Of a DNA stretch of 64,000 bases, positions 1,285 to 56,798 are shown in pieces. The notes below the pieces were generated by a model. The model saw only the letters and a program-made list of their open reading frames with translations, was not told the origin of the DNA and searched no databases. The stretch's first letter is position 1. Each line of letters opens with the position of its first letter. Source of the stretch: Taibaiella koreensis (GTDB lineage Bacteria; Bacteroidota; Bacteroidia; Chitinophagales; Chitinophagaceae); assembly GCF_003545715.1 (NCBI RefSeq), contig NZ_QVNU01000007.1:62001-126000 (forward strand), given 5' to 3'. The translations under genes and the position numbers were made by a program.

Positions 1285-3567
1285 ATGAAAAAAATTTTCG
1301 GCGTAATGCTGTTGCTGGCAGCCTGCTGGTGCAGTCGTGCCCAAAGCGGCCCTTGTAACAATACCTTTGTAAAACAACTGGATCGCGTTGGGAAAATAGC
1401 ACCCCGCATCTTCAGGGATTCTGCGGCGACGAACTATTTCCTGACGACGCGTAGTAATGACACTATTTTCATTTCGCGTATTGATGCTGTGGGTAATATT
1501 CTTTCGACGCGGACTATAAATTTTCCCGGAGATGCCGGCACGATCATTGATTTGGTTGTGGACAAAATTGACGGTACACTGGCATGTATCGTAACGGGCA
1601 CCAACAACAATTTTATATTTAAATACGATTATGCTACGGCCACCTTTAACTGGATCAAGCGATATCCGGCCAATTATCTTTTTGAAAATATCCATCATTT
1701 AGGCGCCAATGCCTATGTGGTCACCGGAGAATTCATGAATGGCCCGATCGTTATTTTCCGTATGAACCGCGTTACGGGCGCCATGACTGCTGTTCAGGGA
1801 ACCGGGTTTACAGGGGAGTTTTTATCCACCTATCAAGGCACAGATATTTATGGCGCCTGCCGGTATTATAGTTCAGGTACCTTGTTTAATCCCTCCTTAT
1901 ACGGGTTCAATAATACAGGCAATGTGTGGACCAATACTTATGTGCAGAATACTCCGGGATCCTCCGCGCTTATTTATCCGGTTGCCCCTATTGTAGATCA
2001 TAATAACCTGGTACAGCTTAGTAGCGGAGACGACGCTGGCATAGGTACCTACCAGACGGGGCCTACAGGCGTATGGCTACTGAAAACAGATTTGCATGGA
2101 ACATTGGCATGGACCAGGCAAATCCTCATTCCTGGCTACACACAATTAAATGCAAAAAAAATAATCAATACGGCCTCGGGCTATTATTTGTTGATAGATG
2201 CCTATAATGGTACGCTTACCAACTACTTTTTCCTGGTAAAAACAGACAAGAACGGGCACGTACAATGGGCTAACCGTTATGGCATCAGTGGTGAGAACAC
2301 CGTTGTATCAGGTGTTGAAAGCAATAGCTATTTGTACCTTACCGCATTGTCGCAAAGTTATAATCCTAACAAGCCACTCCTTTTCCTAAAATTGAATCCC
2401 CTGGGTATGACCGACATTAGCTGTCCCTATATCCAACCGGTGAGCGCTTATGATTCGATTTATACCCATACGCAGGCGGCTAAGCCAACCGTATTCAACC
2501 CGACAAATTATTCCAATACACCCGGTACGATTTTCGCATCCAAGGTTACCGCTGTGGAAAGGGTATACTGCTCCACCCCCTGCATGCTTCCCTGCAGTAC
2601 GCTCAGCGGAACACTTGCCAGCGGTGTACTTGCTTTTTACCCCTTTGGAAATGGTTCCCTCAACGATCTTTCCGGTAATGGCTACCATCTGATTAATCCA
2701 ACTACAGCCTATCCGACAACAGACAGGGGTGGTAGTGCAAACTGCGCCTATCACTTCGATATGGTCAATCATGATTTCCTTACGATCCCTACCGGTGGCT
2801 CCGGTTTTTTGAACAATATCACCACAAGCCCATTCTCTATTTCGCTTTGGTACCAGGCTACCGGTACCAGGCCTGGCGGAAATTATGAATTGTTGATCGG
2901 AAGAGGGAATACACCCTTACATTGTCCGGATACCTGGGGAGAGTGGTCCATCGGTTTGCACGATTGCAGAAAAGCGGTTGCCGGGCTCGATCAGACCAGT
3001 CACTGGGAAACGAGCAGCATCATGGACTGTGACTCTCTGCTGAACTTAATATCGAATCGCTGGCACCATCTCGTTTTTATATACGATGGCGTAAACTACA
3101 GTTTATATAAAGACGGTATACTTTACGCTGCTCCAAGTGGCCTCTGTGGTAATATGTCGGCCAATATAGGAGAGATGATGCTGGGCGTAGACTATACCGG
3201 GGATCTGGACGATATTATTATATACAACCGGGCACTATCCTCTGCCGAAGTCAATGCTTTGATGAACCTTAATGGTTCCTGTTGCGATGGCCTGATGTCG
3301 ACATTCCGTAGCAAGACCACTTTACCGGCATTATCTAATGCGGTAAAGATATACCCCAATCCGACAGAAGGGCAATTGTCTGTATCGGCCGGGAACGGCA
3401 TTGTCCGCAGCATCCTGGTGTACGACAATACCGGCAGGCCATCGGGCAGCTACCAGTTCGACGCTGCTATCGTTAATCTTGATCTAAGTCATCTGTCTGC
3501 GGGTATTTATTTCCTTAAGATCACTACGGATTCGGGTACTAGCGTTGAAAAGGTAATCCTCAAGTAA
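1285..3567 (+). CDS. Secreted LamG-domain protein with type IX (type A) sorting domain
   Basis: A 760-aa exported protein. It starts with a signal peptide (MKKIFGVMLLLAACWCSRAQ). Residues about 25-430 look like a beta-propeller-type region with repeated 'WLLKTD', 'FFLVKTDKNG' strands. About 455-670 is a concanavalin/LamG-like domain ('FYPFGNGSLNDLSGNG', 'LDDIIIYNRALSSAEV'). The last 75 residues are a T9SS type A sorting domain ('YPNPTEG ... LSAGIYFLKI'). The frame is open from 1249, but the signal peptide begins at the ATG at 1285, so that start is preferred. Probably exported by T9SS and attached to or released from the cell surface. The ligand is unknown; LamG domains usually bind glycans. 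A strong terminator follows 31 bp after the stop. Confidence 0.85.
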   Translation: MKKIFGVMLLLAACWCSRAQSGPCNNTFVKQLDRVGKIAPRIFRDSAATNYFLTTRSNDTIFISRIDAVGNILSTRTINFPGDAGTIIDLVVDKIDGTLACIVTGTNNNFIFKYDYATATFNWIKRYPANYLFENIHHLGANAYVVTGEFMNGPIVIFRMNRVTGAMTAVQGTGFTGEFLSTYQGTDIYGACRYYSSGTLFNPSLYGFNNTGNVWTNTYVQNTPGSSALIYPVAPIVDHNNLVQLSSGDDAGIGTYQTGPTGVWLLKTDLHGTLAWTRQILIPGYTQLNAKKIINTASGYYLLIDAYNGTLTNYFFLVKTDKNGHVQWANRYGISGENTVVSGVESNSYLYLTALSQSYNPNKPLLFLKLNPLGMTDISCPYIQPVSAYDSIYTHTQAAKPTVFNPTNYSNTPGTIFASKVTAVERVYCSTPCMLPCSTLSGTLASGVLAFYPFGNGSLNDLSGNGYHLINPTTAYPTTDRGGSANCAYHFDMVNHDFLTIPTGGSGFLNNITTSPFSISLWYQATGTRPGGNYELLIGRGNTPLHCPDTWGEWSIGLHDCRKAVAGLDQTSHWETSSIMDCDSLLNLISNRWHHLVFIYDGVNYSLYKDGILYAAPSGLCGNMSANIGEMMLGVDYTGDLDDIIIYNRALSSAEVNALMNLNGSCCDGLMSTFRSKTTLPALSNAVKIYPNPTEGQLSVSAGNGIVRSILVYDNTGRPSGSYQFDAAIVNLDLSHLSAGIYFLKITTDSGTSVEKVILK

Positions 3568-41313: not shown

Positions 41314-41340
41314 CACCCGAAGTTCTTTTTTACTATTGCT

Positions 41341-41441
41341 ACTTATCCAGAAAGGTGGAGGGAAATGGCCCGACGATACCTTAGCAACCTATACCAGATA
41401 TAAGGTGCTAATTCCAACTTGCGCAAGCAGGGCAGATAAGT
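41341..41441 (+). ncRNA. SAM-I (S-box) riboswitch
   Basis: All core parts are there: P1 strands ACTTATC and GATAAGT close the element, and inside are AGGTGGAGGGA, GGCCC, TTAGCAACC and AAGGTGCTAATTCC. This is the S-adenosylmethionine aptamer. It is followed by a terminator hairpin at 41483, so SAM binding should stop transcription before the PLP-enzyme gene at 41597. Confidence 0.95.
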
Positions 41442-41482
41442 CAGGTCATAGCTTTTGCAAGATCAATTCAACCTCTTGATAC

Positions 41483-41596: not shown

Positions 41597-42790
41597 ATGA
41601 GCACAACCACGCAAATCCTGAGCAGCATCCCTGTAGATGCGCTCACCGGCGCGATCAGCGTCCCCATTTACCAAACCGCAACTTTTGTACAAGAGGCGCC
41701 CGGCGTCAACAAGGGCTACGACTATTCCCGCAGCGGCAATCCTACCCGTGCAGCCCTGGAGGAGGTGTTGGCCGGTCTGGAAGGCGGCGCCACCGGCCTT
41801 GCATTTGCCAGCGGCCTGGCGGCTATCGATACCGTATTGAAGCTGCTGAAAAGCGGTGATGAGATACTGGCCGTCGACGATATCTACGGTGGCGCCTATC
41901 GCCTGTTTACCCATGTTTATGAAAAATTCGGTATCCATATCCGCTATATCGACACCAGCGATGTGGTGCTGGTGCAGCGTTCCATAACACCGGCTACCCG
42001 TCTCATATGGCTGGAATCGCCTACCAACCCTACATTGAAGGTATCCGACATCAAGGCTATAGCCAGCCTTGCCAAAGCGCATGGCGCCTGGCTTTGCGTC
42101 GACAATACCTTTACCTCCCCGGTGCTGCAAAAGCCCCTGGCGCTGGGTGCCGACATCGTGGTGCATAGCGCTACCAAATACCTGGGCGGCCACAGCGATC
42201 TGATCGCCGGCGCCATAGTAGCCAAAGACCCCGAGCTGGGCGCCCGCCTGAAGTTCCTGCAGAATGCTGCAGGCAATGTGCTCGGACCTTTCGACAGCTG
42301 GTTGGTATTGCGCGGCCTGGAAACCCTGCCGCTGCGGGTACGCCAGCAATCGCAATCGGCATGGGCTATAGCGCAGTACTTGGAGACGCATGAAGCCGTA
42401 GCTGCTGTATATTATCCGGGGTTGACTTCACATCCTAATCATGAGCTGGCAAGCCGGCAACAGAAAGGCTTCGGCGGTGTAATCAGTTTCCGACTGAAAC
42501 AGGACGACCAGCAATCGGCCACCGCTTTCCTGAAAACACTGCACTTGTTCCACCTGGCCGAAAGCCTGGGCGGCGTCAAAAGCCTGTGCTGTCTGCCCTG
42601 TGAAATGACCCATAAGTCTGTGCCTCGCGAAAAACGTTTGCTGACGGGCGTTACCGATGGTTTCATTCGTTTATCGGTAGGCATAGAGGAAACAGAAGAC
42701 CTGATCGCCGACCTGGAACAGGCCTTTGAAAGGTTGGCCGGTAACGGCATTGAAGCAGGTATACCGGAACATTTGCTGGCAACCGCCTGA
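41597..42790 (+). CDS. Cystathionine gamma-synthase-type PLP enzyme (trans-sulfuration)
   Basis: A 397-aa Cys/Met-metabolism PLP enzyme. It shows 'YDYSRSGNPTRAALEEVLAG', 'SPTNPTLKVSDI', the PLP-lysine motif 'HSATKYLGGHSDLIAGA', and 'CEMTHKSVP' with 'IRLSVGIEETEDLIADLEQA' at the C-terminus. It makes or breaks cystathionine, or uses an activated homoserine. The SAM-I riboswitch upstream points to methionine synthesis, so gamma-synthase or O-acyl-homoserine lyase is more likely than the lyase. Alternative start codons were not needed. Confidence 0.88.
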   Translation: MSTTTQILSSIPVDALTGAISVPIYQTATFVQEAPGVNKGYDYSRSGNPTRAALEEVLAGLEGGATGLAFASGLAAIDTVLKLLKSGDEILAVDDIYGGAYRLFTHVYEKFGIHIRYIDTSDVVLVQRSITPATRLIWLESPTNPTLKVSDIKAIASLAKAHGAWLCVDNTFTSPVLQKPLALGADIVVHSATKYLGGHSDLIAGAIVAKDPELGARLKFLQNAAGNVLGPFDSWLVLRGLETLPLRVRQQSQSAWAIAQYLETHEAVAAVYYPGLTSHPNHELASRQQKGFGGVISFRLKQDDQQSATAFLKTLHLFHLAESLGGVKSLCCLPCEMTHKSVPREKRLLTGVTDGFIRLSVGIEETEDLIADLEQAFERLAGNGIEAGIPEHLLATA

Positions 42791-42867: not shown

Positions 42868-42900
42868 TTTGGAAAATAAGAACGGAAAACTTTAGCTTTG
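42868..42900 (+). promoter_or_regulatory. Promoter of the Cys-leader/homoserine dehydrogenase operon
   Basis: TTTG (42868-42871), 21-bp spacer, TAGCTTTG (42893-42900). Same spacing as the SAM-I promoter. The predicted start is near 42907, about 60 nt before the leader ORF. Confidence 0.75.
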
Positions 42901-42968
42901 TAAGAACACTTGCAAGCCTTTGCAAATACACAATGGATCGCACAATAAATTATACTACACGAATTCGA

Positions 42969-42988
42969 ATGACGCAGCCCTGCGTCAT
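42969..42988 (+). promoter_or_regulatory. Perfect inverted repeat covering the leader start codon
   Basis: ATGACGCAG-CC-CTGCGTCAT. In RNA this gives an 8-bp stem with a 4-nt loop that hides the start codon of the leader peptide; in DNA it could be an operator. Confidence 0.7.
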
Positions 42989-43013
42989 GTGTAGCTGTTG
43001 TTATTGCTGCTGA
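42969..43013 (+). CDS. Cysteine-rich leader peptide (14 aa), candidate cysteine attenuator
   Basis: The frame ATG...TGA encodes MTQPCVMCSCCYCC, with six Cys codons in 14, five of them within the last seven codons. It lies about 60 nt into the transcript from the promoter at 42868 and 105 bp before the OsmC-like gene. Leader ORFs loaded with the codon of a nutrient amino acid are the classical sign of ribosome-mediated control, and Cys-rich ones are known upstream of sulfur genes in mycobacteria. Its start codon lies in the palindrome 42969-42988. Ribosome stalling at Cys codons when charged Cys-tRNA is low would then affect downstream expression (inference). No obvious terminator follows, so translational control is as likely as attenuation. 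Confidence 0.8.
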   Translation: MTQPCVMCSCCYCC

Positions 43014-43118
43014 TATCCTGTATCCTTTTTTCTTTTCCCTTTTCTTTTGAATGTTCTGTTGCTTGCCTGTAAAGGGTTGTAGCTGCTAACCATTTATCAT
43101 CTTTTTATTTTTCCGATC

Positions 43119-43571
43119 ATGGCTACATTAAATTTTTCGTTTGCCGGAGAAAGCATTCATGCGGCAAAGCTGCAATCAAAGACCCGTAAATTCGAATTGG
43201 AATTCAGCAATCCCGTTTATACCGAAGTAAACGGCGCGCAGTTTACTGTAGAGTATCTTTTTACGATCAATCAATATGCAGAGAACCTGAGCGAAGCTTT
43301 CCACCTGGCTGCGGGCGAGGCGGGCGTAGCGGTTGAGCACCTCGCGCTCAACATTACAGGTTGTCTGGATAGCGACAGTAAGCCCACATACGACAACGGC
43401 GACCGCCGTTTCAACAGGATCGACGTATCCCTCGCCATTGCAGCCGATGCGCCGGAAGCCCTGCTGGAAGATATTTTCCGGTTGGCCATGGCCCTCAGCC
43501 CGGCAGAAGATGCCCTTTCTGATAAAGTGCAGTACCGCTTTTCCCTTAATACCATTATTCATCTGAATTAA
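43119..43571 (+). CDS. Small protein, possibly OsmC-like
   Basis: A 150-aa cytoplasmic protein. The second half ('ALNITGCLDSDSKPTY', 'RFNRIDVSLAIAADAPEALLEDIFRLAMALSP') has the strand-helix layout of OsmC/Ohr proteins: a long central helix, then a beta strand and a helix that in OsmC carries the second Cys ('SCPV'). Here that place reads 'LSPAEDAL', so the peroxidatic Cys is missing; only one Cys is present. It is the first full gene after the Cys-rich leader and is 13 bp from homoserine dehydrogenase. It may bind a thiol or sulfur compound rather than act as peroxidase. Family assignment is tentative. Confidence 0.6.
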   Translation: MATLNFSFAGESIHAAKLQSKTRKFELEFSNPVYTEVNGAQFTVEYLFTINQYAENLSEAFHLAAGEAGVAVEHLALNITGCLDSDSKPTYDNGDRRFNRIDVSLAIAADAPEALLEDIFRLAMALSPAEDALSDKVQYRFSLNTIIHLN

Positions 43572-43584
43572 CTCAATAAAAGAC

Positions 43585-44850
43585 ATGTCTGATAAAAAGA
43601 AATTAGTGATCGGCCTCTTCGGCTTTGGCGTTGTCGGTGAAGGGCTGTATAGAGTCCTGCAGCAAACGACCTCGCTGAACGGTACCATTAAAAAAGTGTG
43701 CATCAAGCACCCGGAAAAAAAGCGCAATGCCCCCGACGCGCTTTTTACTACAGAAAAAGAAGCTTTGCTGAACGATGAGGACATCAATGTGATCGTGGAA
43801 GTGATCGACGATGCCGGCGCGGCATTCGATATTGTGCAGGCCGCTTTACGCAAGGGTAAGGCCGTGGTGAGCGCCAGCAAGAAAATGATCGCCGAGCACC
43901 TGCCGGAGATACTCGCCCTGCAACAGGAGACCGGTCTGCCTTTTCTCTATGAAAGCGCTGCCTGCGCTTCAATCCCCGTGATCCGCAACCTGGAAGAATA
44001 TTACGACAACGACCTGCTGCATTCGATCAGGGCGATCGTGAACGGCTCTACCAACTTTATCCTTACCAAGATACTGGAAGATAAGCTGAGCTTTGCCGAA
44101 GCGCTGAAGCTGGCGCAGGAGCTGGGTTTTGCCGAAAGTGACCCCAGGCTCGATGTGGAAGGCTACGATGCCGCCAACAAATGGACCTTCCTGCTTACGC
44201 ATGCTTACGGTATCGTAGCGCCTACGGCGAGTATCCTTTTCAACGGGATACAGAACATCCAGCTGAACGATGCCCGGGTGGCCCGCGAAAGAGAGTGCGA
44301 GATCAAGCTGGTGGCGCAGGCCAAAAAGCTGCAGGACGGTAAAGTAGCCGCGCTGGTGCTGCCCCAGTTTGTGCCGCAGCACGATGCCCTTGCTTTTGTG
44401 CGGCAGGAATACAATGGTGTCGTGATCGAAAGCGGCTTTGCCGACGAGCAGTTCTTCTATGGAAAAGGCGCGGGAAGCTTTCCCACAGCCTCAGCGGTGC
44501 TGAGCGATATTTCGGCATTACGATACGACTATAAATATGAATACAAGAAGCTGTATCATCACCAACCTTCAGAGCTTTCGACTGATTTTTACCTGAGGGT
44601 ATATATCAGCGCTGCCGACTGGGCACAGCTGCCCAAGGAAGAGCTGGAATGGATCGACGAATGGCATAGCGGTCCGCAGCGCAGCTATCTCGGTGGCGTG
44701 ATCCATTACCGCCGTCTTAAGGATAGCGACTGGTGGAAGCAGGATGGCGTGTCGCTGATCCTGGCGCCGGAGGCTATTATCGAACCTGCCGCACTGGAAG
44801 CGCTGCGTCCGGCCAGGAACCAGGAAACGCTCGAAACGCTCCTGGCATAA
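43585..44850 (+). CDS. Homoserine dehydrogenase, first copy
   Basis: A 421-aa enzyme that reduces aspartate semialdehyde to homoserine, the branch point to threonine and methionine. It has the NAD(P) motif 'GLFGFGVVGEGLYRVL', 'IVNGSTNFILTKILED' and 'ELGFAESDPRLDVEGYDAANK' with the catalytic Lys/Asp region. The C-terminal part (about 310-421) is not a canonical ACT domain. It follows the OsmC-like gene by 13 bp and precedes a peroxiredoxin gene by 35 bp. A paralogue lies at 45571. Confidence 0.93.
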   Translation: MSDKKKLVIGLFGFGVVGEGLYRVLQQTTSLNGTIKKVCIKHPEKKRNAPDALFTTEKEALLNDEDINVIVEVIDDAGAAFDIVQAALRKGKAVVSASKKMIAEHLPEILALQQETGLPFLYESAACASIPVIRNLEEYYDNDLLHSIRAIVNGSTNFILTKILEDKLSFAEALKLAQELGFAESDPRLDVEGYDAANKWTFLLTHAYGIVAPTASILFNGIQNIQLNDARVARERECEIKLVAQAKKLQDGKVAALVLPQFVPQHDALAFVRQEYNGVVIESGFADEQFFYGKGAGSFPTASAVLSDISALRYDYKYEYKKLYHHQPSELSTDFYLRVYISAADWAQLPKEELEWIDEWHSGPQRSYLGGVIHYRRLKDSDWWKQDGVSLILAPEAIIEPAALEALRPARNQETLETLLA

Positions 44851-44885: not shown

Positions 44886-45518
44886 ATGTCATTAAGACTA
44901 GGCGACGAAGCCCCCGATTTCAAGGCTAAATCAACGATAGGCGATATTCGCTTCCACGAATTCCTGGGCAATAGCTGGGGCGTGCTGTTCAGCCATCCGG
45001 CCGATTATACACCGGTATGTACTACCGAGCTGGGGCGTACGGCGCAGCTGAAGGACGAATTTGCCCGTCGCAACGTAAAGGTGCTGGCGCTAAGCGTAGA
45101 CTCGCTGGAGCAGCACCAGGGCTGGATAGGAGATATCGACGAAACGCAGCATACCAAAGTGGAATTCCCGGTGATCGCCGACGAAGACCGTAAGGTATCG
45201 GAGCTGTACGATATGATTCATCCCAATGCCTCAGCTACCGCTACCGTGCGCTCACTTTTCGTGATAGGGCCGGATAAAAAGGTCAAGCTTACACTGACTT
45301 ACCCGGCATCTACCGGCCGCAACTTCAACGAAGTGCTGCGCGTGATCGACTCGCTGCAACTGACAGCCGCGCACAGCGTGGCCACGCCGGCCGACTGGCA
45401 GCAGGGAGAAGATGTGATCGTGGTGCCGGCTGTAAGTACCGAGGAAGCCGAAAAGCGCTTCCCTGCCGGTTTGCGGATCGTTAAGCCCTACCTGCGTTAT
45501 ACGCCGCAGCCAGAGTAG
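44886..45518 (+). CDS. 1-Cys peroxiredoxin (Prx6 class)
   Basis: A 210-aa thiol peroxidase. 'LGDEAPDFKAKSTIGDIRFHEF' opens the thioredoxin fold, 'HPADYTPVCTTELGRTAQL' has the peroxidatic Cys, and the long C-terminal domain ('WQQGEDVIVVPAVSTEEAEKRFP') is typical of the Prx6/1-Cys group. It reduces peroxides in the cytoplasm with an external thiol. The frame is open from 44733, but the ATG at 44886 is the family start. It lies between two homoserine dehydrogenase genes in the same operon. Confidence 0.94.
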   Translation: MSLRLGDEAPDFKAKSTIGDIRFHEFLGNSWGVLFSHPADYTPVCTTELGRTAQLKDEFARRNVKVLALSVDSLEQHQGWIGDIDETQHTKVEFPVIADEDRKVSELYDMIHPNASATATVRSLFVIGPDKKVKLTLTYPASTGRNFNEVLRVIDSLQLTAAHSVATPADWQQGEDVIVVPAVSTEEAEKRFPAGLRIVKPYLRYTPQPE

Positions 45519-45570: not shown

Positions 45571-46818
45571 ATGATAAAACCGATCCGTATCGGACTGTTT
45601 GGCTATGGCGTCGTGGGTGCCGGTTTTGCCCGCCTGGTGGCGCAAATTCCGGGAGCGGAGATCAGCAGGATCGTAGTCAAGCATCCCTTTCTGCACCAGG
45701 AGCTGGGACCCGAGCTGCTGGCCGGCCATCTGCACGAAGTGTTGTACGATAAAGATATCGACGTGATTGTAGAAGCGATCGACGATGCCGACGCCGCTTT
45801 TACGATCTTAAGGCTGGCACTGGAGCAGGGTAAGCCGGTGATCACCGCCAATAAGCGGATGGTCGCAAATCATTTGCCCGAGATCATCAGGCTGCAGCGG
45901 CGTTTCCGTACGCCGGTATTGTATGAGGCGGCCTGCTGTGCCGGTATTCCGGTCATACGCACCCTGGAGGATTATTTCAGGCCTGAGCTGGTGGGTGGCC
46001 TCACCGGGATCATCAACGGCTCTACTAATTATATATTGACCGCAATGGAGCGCTTTCGTTTCCGATTCGATCATGCGCTGCAGCTGGCTCAGGAAGCCGG
46101 TTTCGCAGAAAGCGATGCTGCGCTTGATGTTGAGGGAACAGATGCTGCCTGTAAGCTGAGCATTATTGTGCGTCATCTATGGGGACTATATGTGCCTCCG
46201 GAGCGGATACTGCATACGGGCATACAGCATGTACTGCCGCAGGATCTGCGCCTGGCTGAGCAGCTGGGTGGGGTGGTTAAGCTGGTGGCACAAACGCAAA
46301 AGCTGGATACAGGTAAGGTTACGGCTTTCATATTGCCCCGGCTGGTGCTCAAGGGAACGCCGCTGTACCAAGTGTTGCAAGAATATAACGGCATTGTGCT
46401 CGAAGATATCTATGGCGACGAGCAATTGCTGTACGGCAAAGGCTCGGGAGCCGCACCTACGGCTCAGGGACTATGGGCCGATCTGCAGGCCTGGCGCAGA
46501 GGCTACCGGTACCAGTACCCGGAAAAAGAGCTCCTGACCTTAAGCTATGACAAGGAGCTGACCCTGCATTTTTCTTTGCCCAATGGCGCTTATGTGCCGC
46601 CGCAGCTACAGCAGCAATTGGAATATTATGCCGCCGATAGCCGGTACCAGTACTTTACCGGCAGGCTATCGCTGCAGGCACTTGCATCAGGTTCCTGGTG
46701 GAGGGAGAAGGGCATTTCCATATTGGATATTTCGGCCATTGCGGGCGACGAAGAAGCGCTGAAAGAGCAGCTAAATACCTTAATGCTGTTACGAACCGAT
46801 ATTTTTCAACCGGTTTAA
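45571..46818 (+). CDS. Homoserine dehydrogenase, second copy
   Basis: A 415-aa paralogue of the protein at 43585 with the same motifs: 'GLFGYGVVGAGFARLV', 'IINGSTNYILTAMERF', 'EAGFAESDAALDVEGTDAACKLS'. The C-terminal third differs more. The frame opens at 45544, but the ATG at 45571 fits the family start. It ends the operon, followed within 4 bp by a bidirectional terminator. The two enzymes may differ in feedback control or cofactor (inference). Confidence 0.92.
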   Translation: MIKPIRIGLFGYGVVGAGFARLVAQIPGAEISRIVVKHPFLHQELGPELLAGHLHEVLYDKDIDVIVEAIDDADAAFTILRLALEQGKPVITANKRMVANHLPEIIRLQRRFRTPVLYEAACCAGIPVIRTLEDYFRPELVGGLTGIINGSTNYILTAMERFRFRFDHALQLAQEAGFAESDAALDVEGTDAACKLSIIVRHLWGLYVPPERILHTGIQHVLPQDLRLAEQLGGVVKLVAQTQKLDTGKVTAFILPRLVLKGTPLYQVLQEYNGIVLEDIYGDEQLLYGKGSGAAPTAQGLWADLQAWRRGYRYQYPEKELLTLSYDKELTLHFSLPNGAYVPPQLQQQLEYYAADSRYQYFTGRLSLQALASGSWWREKGISILDISAIAGDEEALKEQLNTLMLLRTDIFQPV

Positions 46819-56395: not shown

Positions 56396-56433
56396 ATGCC
56401 GCCTGGCATGGATTGATTTTGATAGAAAAAAAA

Positions 56434-56798
56434 CTACAAACCCTGTAAGCCGGATTTTGTCCGCCGCAAGCGGCGGTGCTGCCATTTATCTGGGTGTTAC
56501 CTTGCGGCAACACTCTATCTGCCTACCCGCAGGCATCGGACGAGCAGCCCTCAATCGCCTGCCTATTGGGCATTTCATCACGCAAGGCTTGCCCATAATT
56601 GCAGTTACCTGCAGCTATCGTGCGCTCTTACCGCACATTTTCACCCTTACCCTTCGTCTTGCGGCGCCGGGCGGTTATTTTCTGTGGCGCTGTCTGTATT
56701 TCCCTTGCCGGAAACCCCATCCGTTAGGTGGTGCGTCGCTCTGTGCTGTCCGGACTTTCCTCTACTCCTTGCGGAGCAGCGGCAGCACGGGTTTGTAG
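56434..56798 (-). ncRNA. rnpB: RNase P RNA, class A
   Basis: The minus strand starts CTACAAACCCGTGCTGCCGC and ends GGGTTTGTAG, which pair as P1. Inside are the conserved GAGGAAAGTCCGGAC (CR I), CAGAAAATAACCGCC, the GGTAAGAGCGCAC core and the 3' ACAAAATCCGGCTTACAG (CR V). It is the catalytic RNA that trims tRNA 5' ends. About 365 nt. The transcript ends in a T run (minus strand TTTTTTTTCTATC). Confidence 0.97.

Follow-up and report, generated by a model that had tools for sequence, protein, structure and literature searches.

Background

Ribosome-mediated attenuators of the trp, his and ilv type place regulatory codons within a short ORF, overlapped by an RNA structure. The leader described here, located upstream of an operon of Taibaiella koreensis headed by an OsmC-family gene, likewise features putative regulatory codons in a short ORF and an overlapping structure; unlike the trp, his and ilv attenuators, this osmC leader has no demonstrated terminator/antiterminator pair.

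Leaders with Cys codons are described, in the passages of PMC1262725 dealing with them, before the cys operons of Mycobacterium and Propionibacterium acnes and before cbs of Bifidobacterium longum; there they are reported without conserved terminators and with pyrimidine-rich stretches. Mycobacterial polycysteine short ORFs are credited to Canestrari et al. 2020 in the citing passage of PMC13236596. As far as these descriptions go, the Taibaiella leader resembles the actinobacterial ones in many respects: a short frame, Cys codons near the stop, a position just before sulfur genes, no obvious terminator and pyrimidine-rich DNA behind. It differs from them in belonging to another phylum, in having a conserved hairpin of its own, in its OsmC-family/homoserine dehydrogenase target and in a frame which, judging from a promoter-like site, would start about 26 bases into the transcript.

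Within Bacteroidota, the relevant passages of PMC9723704 propose that leader peptides attenuate amino-acid operons in Flavobacterium psychrophilum, and those of PMC7366714 indicate sORFs resembling leader peptides in Bacteroides thetaiotaomicron. These candidates share the phylum and the suggested principle with the Taibaiella leader; no cysteine leader is named in those passages, and the candidates are set apart from it by their descriptions, not by sequence. Among the matches listed from the open-licence PMC literature, none reports a cysteine leader in Bacteroidota by its title or the opening of its abstract. The principle is known; what is new, within the literature these searches cover, is the phylum, together with the osmC/homoserine target and the self-folding of the ORF.

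A cysteine-rich frame upstream of an OsmC-family operon

In the window (the whole 64-kb stretch of T. koreensis DNA analyzed here), a first-pass annotation had indicated an ATG-TGA frame with six Cys in 14 codons, five of them in the last seven. The DNA at 42969-43013 (plus strand) does read so: ATG ACG CAG CCC TGC GTC ATG TGT AGC TGT TGT TAT TGC TGC TGA, translated as MTQPCVMCSCCYCC before the stop. An in-frame ATG at 42933, 36 bases upstream, extends it to a 26-codon frame, MDRTINYTTRIRMTQPCVMCSCCYCC (42933-43013, plus strand). The true leader start is probably this one, because no other start holds its position across the four Taibaiella genomes compared; the ATG at 42969, favored by the first-pass annotation, is absent in T. 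chishuiensis and lies one codon off in T. lutea. The Cys-rich frame is real, beyond chance: among the 996 ATG ORFs in the window that are 8-40 codons long, with nested starts taken as separate ORFs, five Cys in eight codons are found only in the three nested starts of this frame, and 20 simulated windows, generated by a first-order Markov model, gave one such ORF in total.

A promoter-like site lies upstream (42868-42900, plus strand), composed of TTTG (42868-42871), 21 bases and TAGCTTTG (42893-42900), as previously annotated; TAGCTTTG is retained in all four Taibaiella sequences, and we take the site to be a promoter of the Bacteroidota type. Near the transcript start, a repeated TTGCAA may form a small hairpin (UUGCA/UGCAA; 42910-42925, plus strand): its five pairs are invariant in the four genomes and are therefore uninformative for or against pairing.

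The first gene of the operon starts 105 bases after the leader stop. All genes are on the plus strand and agree with the earlier annotation: a probable OsmC-family protein of 150 aa (43119-43571; PF02566), a homoserine dehydrogenase of 421 aa (43585-44850; PF00742, PF03447), a peroxiredoxin of the AhpC/TSA family, 210 aa (44886-45518; PF00578, PF10417), and a second homoserine dehydrogenase-like gene, 415 aa (45571-46818; PF00742, PF03447). For the first gene, PF02566 is found in three of the four orthologues when E values up to 10 are admitted (best E 7.3e-7); the window copy scores E 0.0035 and 18.2 bits, with a cut-off of 27.5, and has no Pfam match at 0.001. Typical OsmC proteins carry two catalytic Cys. 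The protein encoded here is Cys-poor, with one Cys in the window copy and none in that of T. lutea. An AlphaFold2 model of it was set aside (pLDDT 37.5).

A SAM riboswitch (41340-41442, plus strand; RF00162, 82.5 bits) precedes a gene for a Cys/Met-metabolism PLP enzyme (41597-42790), upstream of the Cys-leader operon. It is a separate element, the Cys leader having a promoter-like site of its own. RF00162 is also found in T. lutea (L097) and T. chishuiensis (L101), and is not reported for T. helva (L098). As the operon follows the riboswitch on the same strand, one region carries sensors for SAM and, probably, for Cys.

Conservation within Taibaiella

Among 147 genomes searched in the window's family, the OsmC-family protein turned up in three, which belong to a single genus; it is present in four out of four genomes of Taibaiella, a genus placed by the NCBI taxonomy within Chitinophagaceae, Bacteroidota. 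The comparison set is composed of the window, T. helva (G001/L098), T. lutea (G101/L097) and T. chishuiensis (G147/L101); OsmC-family identities with the window copy are 83, 52 and 54% for the three relatives. In each of the four, a leader frame precedes the same OsmC-family/homoserine dehydrogenase genes, its stop being 105-112 bases from the OsmC start. The peptides are MDRTINYTTRIRMTQPCVMCSCCYCC in the window, MIHATNFTTRIRMTQPCVMCSYCCCW in T. helva, MKPTTIHTTHIHLMHRRVMCSYCCNWQ in T. lutea and MTATAIHIYTTQTVIARQRMMCSCCCYMW in T. chishuiensis, with 26, 26, 27 and 29 codons and 6, 5, 3 and 4 Cys codons, respectively, clustered near the frame end. With only three Cys, the T. lutea leader fails both Cys rules applied to other loci (see below).

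The start at the 42933 position is retained in all four leaders, indels involve whole codons, and both other forward frames hold stops in every case. An MCS[CY]CC core is common to the four; the positions following it differ, being occupied by Cys, Tyr, Trp, Asn, Met or Gln. The alignment of upstream regions, which had been recommended as a check, gave a Cys-rich frame kept in all four Taibaiella genomes, while its other codons drift. The retained start, the whole-codon indels, the closed alternative frames and the enclosing hairpin described below support selection, and the frame is very probably selected as a coding leader.

A hairpin enclosing the leader frame

The frame is enclosed in an RNA hairpin (42940-43010, plus strand), absent from the first-pass annotation, whose mean pair probability is 0.90-0.95 in the four genomes. 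Stem P1 pairs the early codons (42940-42948) with the Cys-codon end of the frame (43001-43006 and 43008-43010); P2 pairs 42955-42960 with 42989-42994, and the apical P3 pairs 42969-42976 with 42981-42988. P2 is an invariant CUACAC/GUGUAG stem, with arms 28 bases apart in all four sequences; P3, in contrast, varies in sequence among them. Several Cys codons fall within the 3' arms; others, such as codon 22 in the window and codon 25 in T. helva, are outside the predicted stems.

Compared with dinucleotide shuffles, the transcript leader folds better in each of the four genomes (z -3.2, -2.8, -3.0 and -3.0), and so does the ORF alone (z -2.5, -2.4, -2.5 and -3.4, the last for a stretch shifted by one base). 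When the structure is aligned, 95.8% of the 96 pair cells are formed, against 16-51% for slid versions of it, and double changes occur in three pairs. The observed covariation is reached by 27 to 133 of 500 shuffles, according to the measure used: with four sequences the signal is weak, and it can be taken as suggestive only. Since some core Cys codons also form stems, selection on the stem and selection on the codons are not fully separable. A search of the leader against Rfam gave no fitting family, the two matches obtained (E 1.8 and 4.5) being far below gathering scores. Elsewhere in the window, Rfam reports an RNase P RNA (56430-56798, minus strand; RF00010, 261.9 bits).

The region between leader and first gene

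A polypyrimidine tract, a possible Rho-loading site or a spacer, was located by eye at 43024-43048 (plus strand); it follows the leader stop in three of the four genomes, and is not clear in T. chishuiensis. Behind it, at 43048-43096 (plus strand), a weak hairpin followed by T-rich DNA is a candidate terminator: its mean pair probability is 0.59-0.66 in the three relatives and 0.02 in the window, since the 5' end there engages this region in another pairing. The earlier statement that no terminator is seen holds for a scan with a consensus terminator, which found none between leader and first gene, and does not extend to weak hairpins before T-rich DNA, which exist.

A stalling-dependent exchange between terminator and antiterminator was sought by modeling a ribosome on each Cys codon, and none was observed in the four genomes. 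In T. helva, placing the ribosome on the later Cys codons lowers the terminator from 0.60 to 0.30, and placing it on the stop codon does so to the same extent, so that the effect lacks specificity for stalling; the other three genomes show hardly any change. The complementarity of the window Cys-codon end to its flanks is not higher than in shuffles (z 0.4 upstream and -1.7 downstream), and the longest perfect complement has p 0.627. Intrinsic termination may be the output of the leader, at slightly less than even odds.

Search for the osmC leader in other genomes

Outside Taibaiella, the searches have not convincingly found the osmC leader element. A covariance model built from the leader matches the four Taibaiella among 244 family genomes, at E 1.2e-20 or better; another 36 of the 244 match at E 0.0052-0.9. 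Scanning 26 of these weaker loci yielded no ORF with four Cys in eight codons at the match, a scan blind to weak leaders, because the true leader of T. lutea (L103) was missed by it.

The expectation that such a leader would precede homoserine dehydrogenase in other genera was not borne out: no upstream ATG ORF with at least four Cys in eight codons was found at 28 non-Taibaiella homoserine dehydrogenase loci, searched up to 1500 bases upstream, some of them cut by contig ends, by a scan which would miss a leader like that of T. lutea. The sole match, at L053, lies downstream of homoserine dehydrogenase and is antisense to a different gene. At some of these loci, homoserine dehydrogenase follows a metX-like gene (L048, L053) or a QueF-like one (L050), as named by eye.

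Pattern searches were tried as well. A loose DNA pattern (17 bases, three mismatches) hit 145 of 147 genomes, with about as many control matches, and was useless; a 22-base pattern hit 6 of 147, the three outside the genus with three mismatches each. A gapped stem pattern matched 22 of 198 genomes of the order, and all but G000 were judged by eye to be chance. An exact gapped pattern, run on 84,980 species in a scan that may omit records very near the window, found three Taibaiella and three further loci, taken as chance: L099 (antisense within coding DNA), L100 (archaeal) and L102 (clostridial). The NCBIfam leader peptide models returned no family for the four leaders, which are short as queries.

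Cys-run leaders upstream of cysH

The osmC leader is one of several Cys-codon leaders in the family: others occur before cysH. Around PF01507 genes in genomes of the family, Cys-run ORFs were found ahead of cysH, with sequences unlike the osmC leader. Of these loci, cysD and weak matches were left out and 40 cysH loci were used; the whole cysH set comprises 106 loci, 42 from the window's family (GTDB family f1, taken as Chitinophagaceae through the NCBI placing of Taibaiella) the other 64 being spread over 17 further families of the phylum. A cysH match was present in 111 genomes of the phylum, of which 70 were examined; the remaining 41 include 22 of family f37. A leader was defined as a same-strand ATG ORF of 6-45 codons, with its stop at most 300 bases upstream and at least three Cys in the last seven codons, a rule fixed after the first 30 loci had been seen.

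By this rule, leaders are present in 17 of the 42 family loci, in the single loci of f18 (same order) and f29, and in none of the 62 others; 25 of the 42 family loci and 62 of the 64 outside the family lack one. The f29 case (L197, MMMCCRCW), counted among the resulting 19, is doubtful. No locus out of 106 follows the rule on the reverse strand, and shuffles do so at 0.35 loci on average, and at most at two. Within the family, leaders are found at 17 of the 31 loci whose last 80 bases before cysH are free of the end of any same-strand gene (an ORF of at least 90 codons), and at none of the 11 loci with such an end; the stop is 36-74 bases from cysH in 16 of the 17, and 134 in one. As a control on other residues, Leu-rich endings were found at 24 of the 106 loci, Leu having six codons, against 19 for Cys, six for Phe and at most six for any other residue; the shuffle control was run for the Cys rule.

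In the window genome, MSFYNVSAFSAYVHPVAPVTCCRIVCSHLAICCCC, ending in CRIVCSHLAICCCC and a stop, lies 68 bases before cysH (L163, 8099-8206), which heads a cysH-cysD-cysN-cysE-cysK-like row, named by eye except for the PF01507 genes. An Rrf2-like regulator gene, also named by eye, is located nearby (L163, 7310-7741). T. chishuiensis carries MNKQTTAALQSLHAPTHAALMMACCCSCFCCCC before cysH; at E 1e-20, cysH is not matched in T. helva or T. lutea, both of which nonetheless keep the osmC leader. The anticipated retention in relatives of a Cys-codon leader for sulfur genes is supported for all four Taibaiella and, with separate leaders, for 17 of 42 cysH loci, and not, within the scans described, for a leader of the osmC type in other genera.

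SAM riboswitches are found at four of the 19 cysH loci with a Cys leader: in three (L144, L211, L324) upstream on the leader strand, in L173 on the opposite one. At L324, from T. chishuiensis, a riboswitch and then a Cys leader precede cysH (2336-2437 and 2583-2689, minus strand). The leader of L156, from another genus, begins like that of L324 (MNKQTTAA...), and Rfam reports no SAM riboswitch there.

Folding of the Cys runs before cysH is nothing special in six of the seven tested (z -0.87 to 0.52); L144 reaches z -3.0. In the long leaders of L144, L156 and L324, complements of the Cys run, 9-10 bases long, lie near the start (p 0.027, 0.040 and 0.097, uncorrected, with 24 leaders tested). 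Flank pairing and terminator/antiterminator modeling gave no rule common to all leaders. The cysH leaders have Cys runs in common and no single motif. At L143, L154 and L159, palindromic bits resembling TAGTCTAC/GTAGAC surround the cysH-leader promoter, operator-like by eye.

Proposed mechanism and alternatives

The reading proposed here, with a probability of about 0.7, is a ribosome-mediated, cysteine-responsive control by the leader, in which sensing would take place through Cys-tRNA: Cys-rich frames precede sulfur genes in many relatives, and cysteine supply is therefore probably gauged by the speed at which ribosomes read codons. The short transcript leader would encode the 26-codon peptide, with five Cys codons among its last seven, and the ORF would fold on itself, its early codons pairing with the Cys-codon end (P1, P2) around the apical P3. 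When Cys-tRNA is scarce, ribosomes would stall on the Cys codons and hold the hairpin open, and the OsmC-family/homoserine dehydrogenase/peroxiredoxin operon would be expressed; when it is plentiful, they would finish fast, the hairpin would re-form and expression would be limited. As a first guess, the limiting step would be an early termination of transcription before 43119. The analysis shows a frame, a hairpin and a location conserved within one genus, and Cys leaders before cysH in the family; that the leader is translated, that cysteine is the signal, which way expression responds and that termination limits it are what we infer.

A different output is conceivable for a leader that does sense cysteine, namely Rho loading on the tract at 43024-43048 or translation coupling; this rival touches the last step only, and falls a little short of an even chance. 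The tract itself suggests it, together with the lack of a consensus terminator and of stalling-dependent exchange in the model; the mycobacterial Cys leaders, too, are without conserved terminators and have polyY stretches, in what the corresponding passage of PMC1262725 presents as a weak prediction. However, the OsmC start lies 105-112 bases past the leader stop, a long way for reinitiation; a hairpin precedes T-rich DNA in three relatives, and the T. chishuiensis tract is not clear. More radically, the hairpin could be the functional element, a structured cis-regulatory RNA, riboswitch-like or protein-binding, with an incidental frame and UGUUG repeats dictated by the stem. The invariant P2 with its 28-base spacing, the core Cys codons lying in stems and the folding of the leader, which surpasses shuffles in each genome (z -2.8 to -3.2), fit such an element; the kept start, the whole-codon indels, the closed frames and the Cys codons placed beyond the stems speak against it. 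With two insignificant Rfam matches, and Cys runs before cysH devoid of special folds in six of seven cases, this reading is unlikely.

The peptide itself may be sensor or product, acting as a thiol- or metal-sensing nascent chain, or as a small redox-active peptide working with the OsmC-family protein and the peroxiredoxin, whose genes adjoin. The MCS[CY]CC core kept in all four would suit this role; the variation of the residues after it, and the cysH leaders, sharing Cys runs rather than one motif, make it quite improbable. As for a chance Cys-rich frame in unconstrained intergenic DNA, short ORFs are indeed common; one such ORF in 20 simulated windows, and conservation in four out of four genomes at OsmC identities down to 52%, contradict it, and this explanation can practically be dismissed.

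On a wider scale, the chances are evenly balanced that a Cys-codon leader regulon extends throughout Chitinophagales, made of unlike polycysteine ORFs ahead of sulfur operons, that of cysH among them. Some lineages would have the leader directly behind a SAM riboswitch, so that a single transcript would read SAM as well as Cys-tRNA, and one of the Taibaiella leaders would have become a self-folding ORF, its early codons pairing with its own Cys codons. The proposed cysteine-responsive leader offers Bacteroidota a concrete case, open to experiment, in which cysteine would be sensed through the reading of codons; if true, it would place sulfate assimilation, the supply of homoserine and thiol defence under a common signal. 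It adds the self-folding leader ORF, and suggests that some relatives may combine SAM and cysteine sensing on one transcript.

Other short Cys-rich frames in the window genome

The window genome contains 80 CCC-stop sites, three of which end short ORFs outside long frames; the cysH leader is among them. Near position 1500 of L269, also from the window genome, the short ORF MPPVVPGKYCYLYTTDEYRQCCC is found 66 bases before a VOC/glyoxalase-like gene, as named by eye; it is either a chance frame or a further Cys leader.
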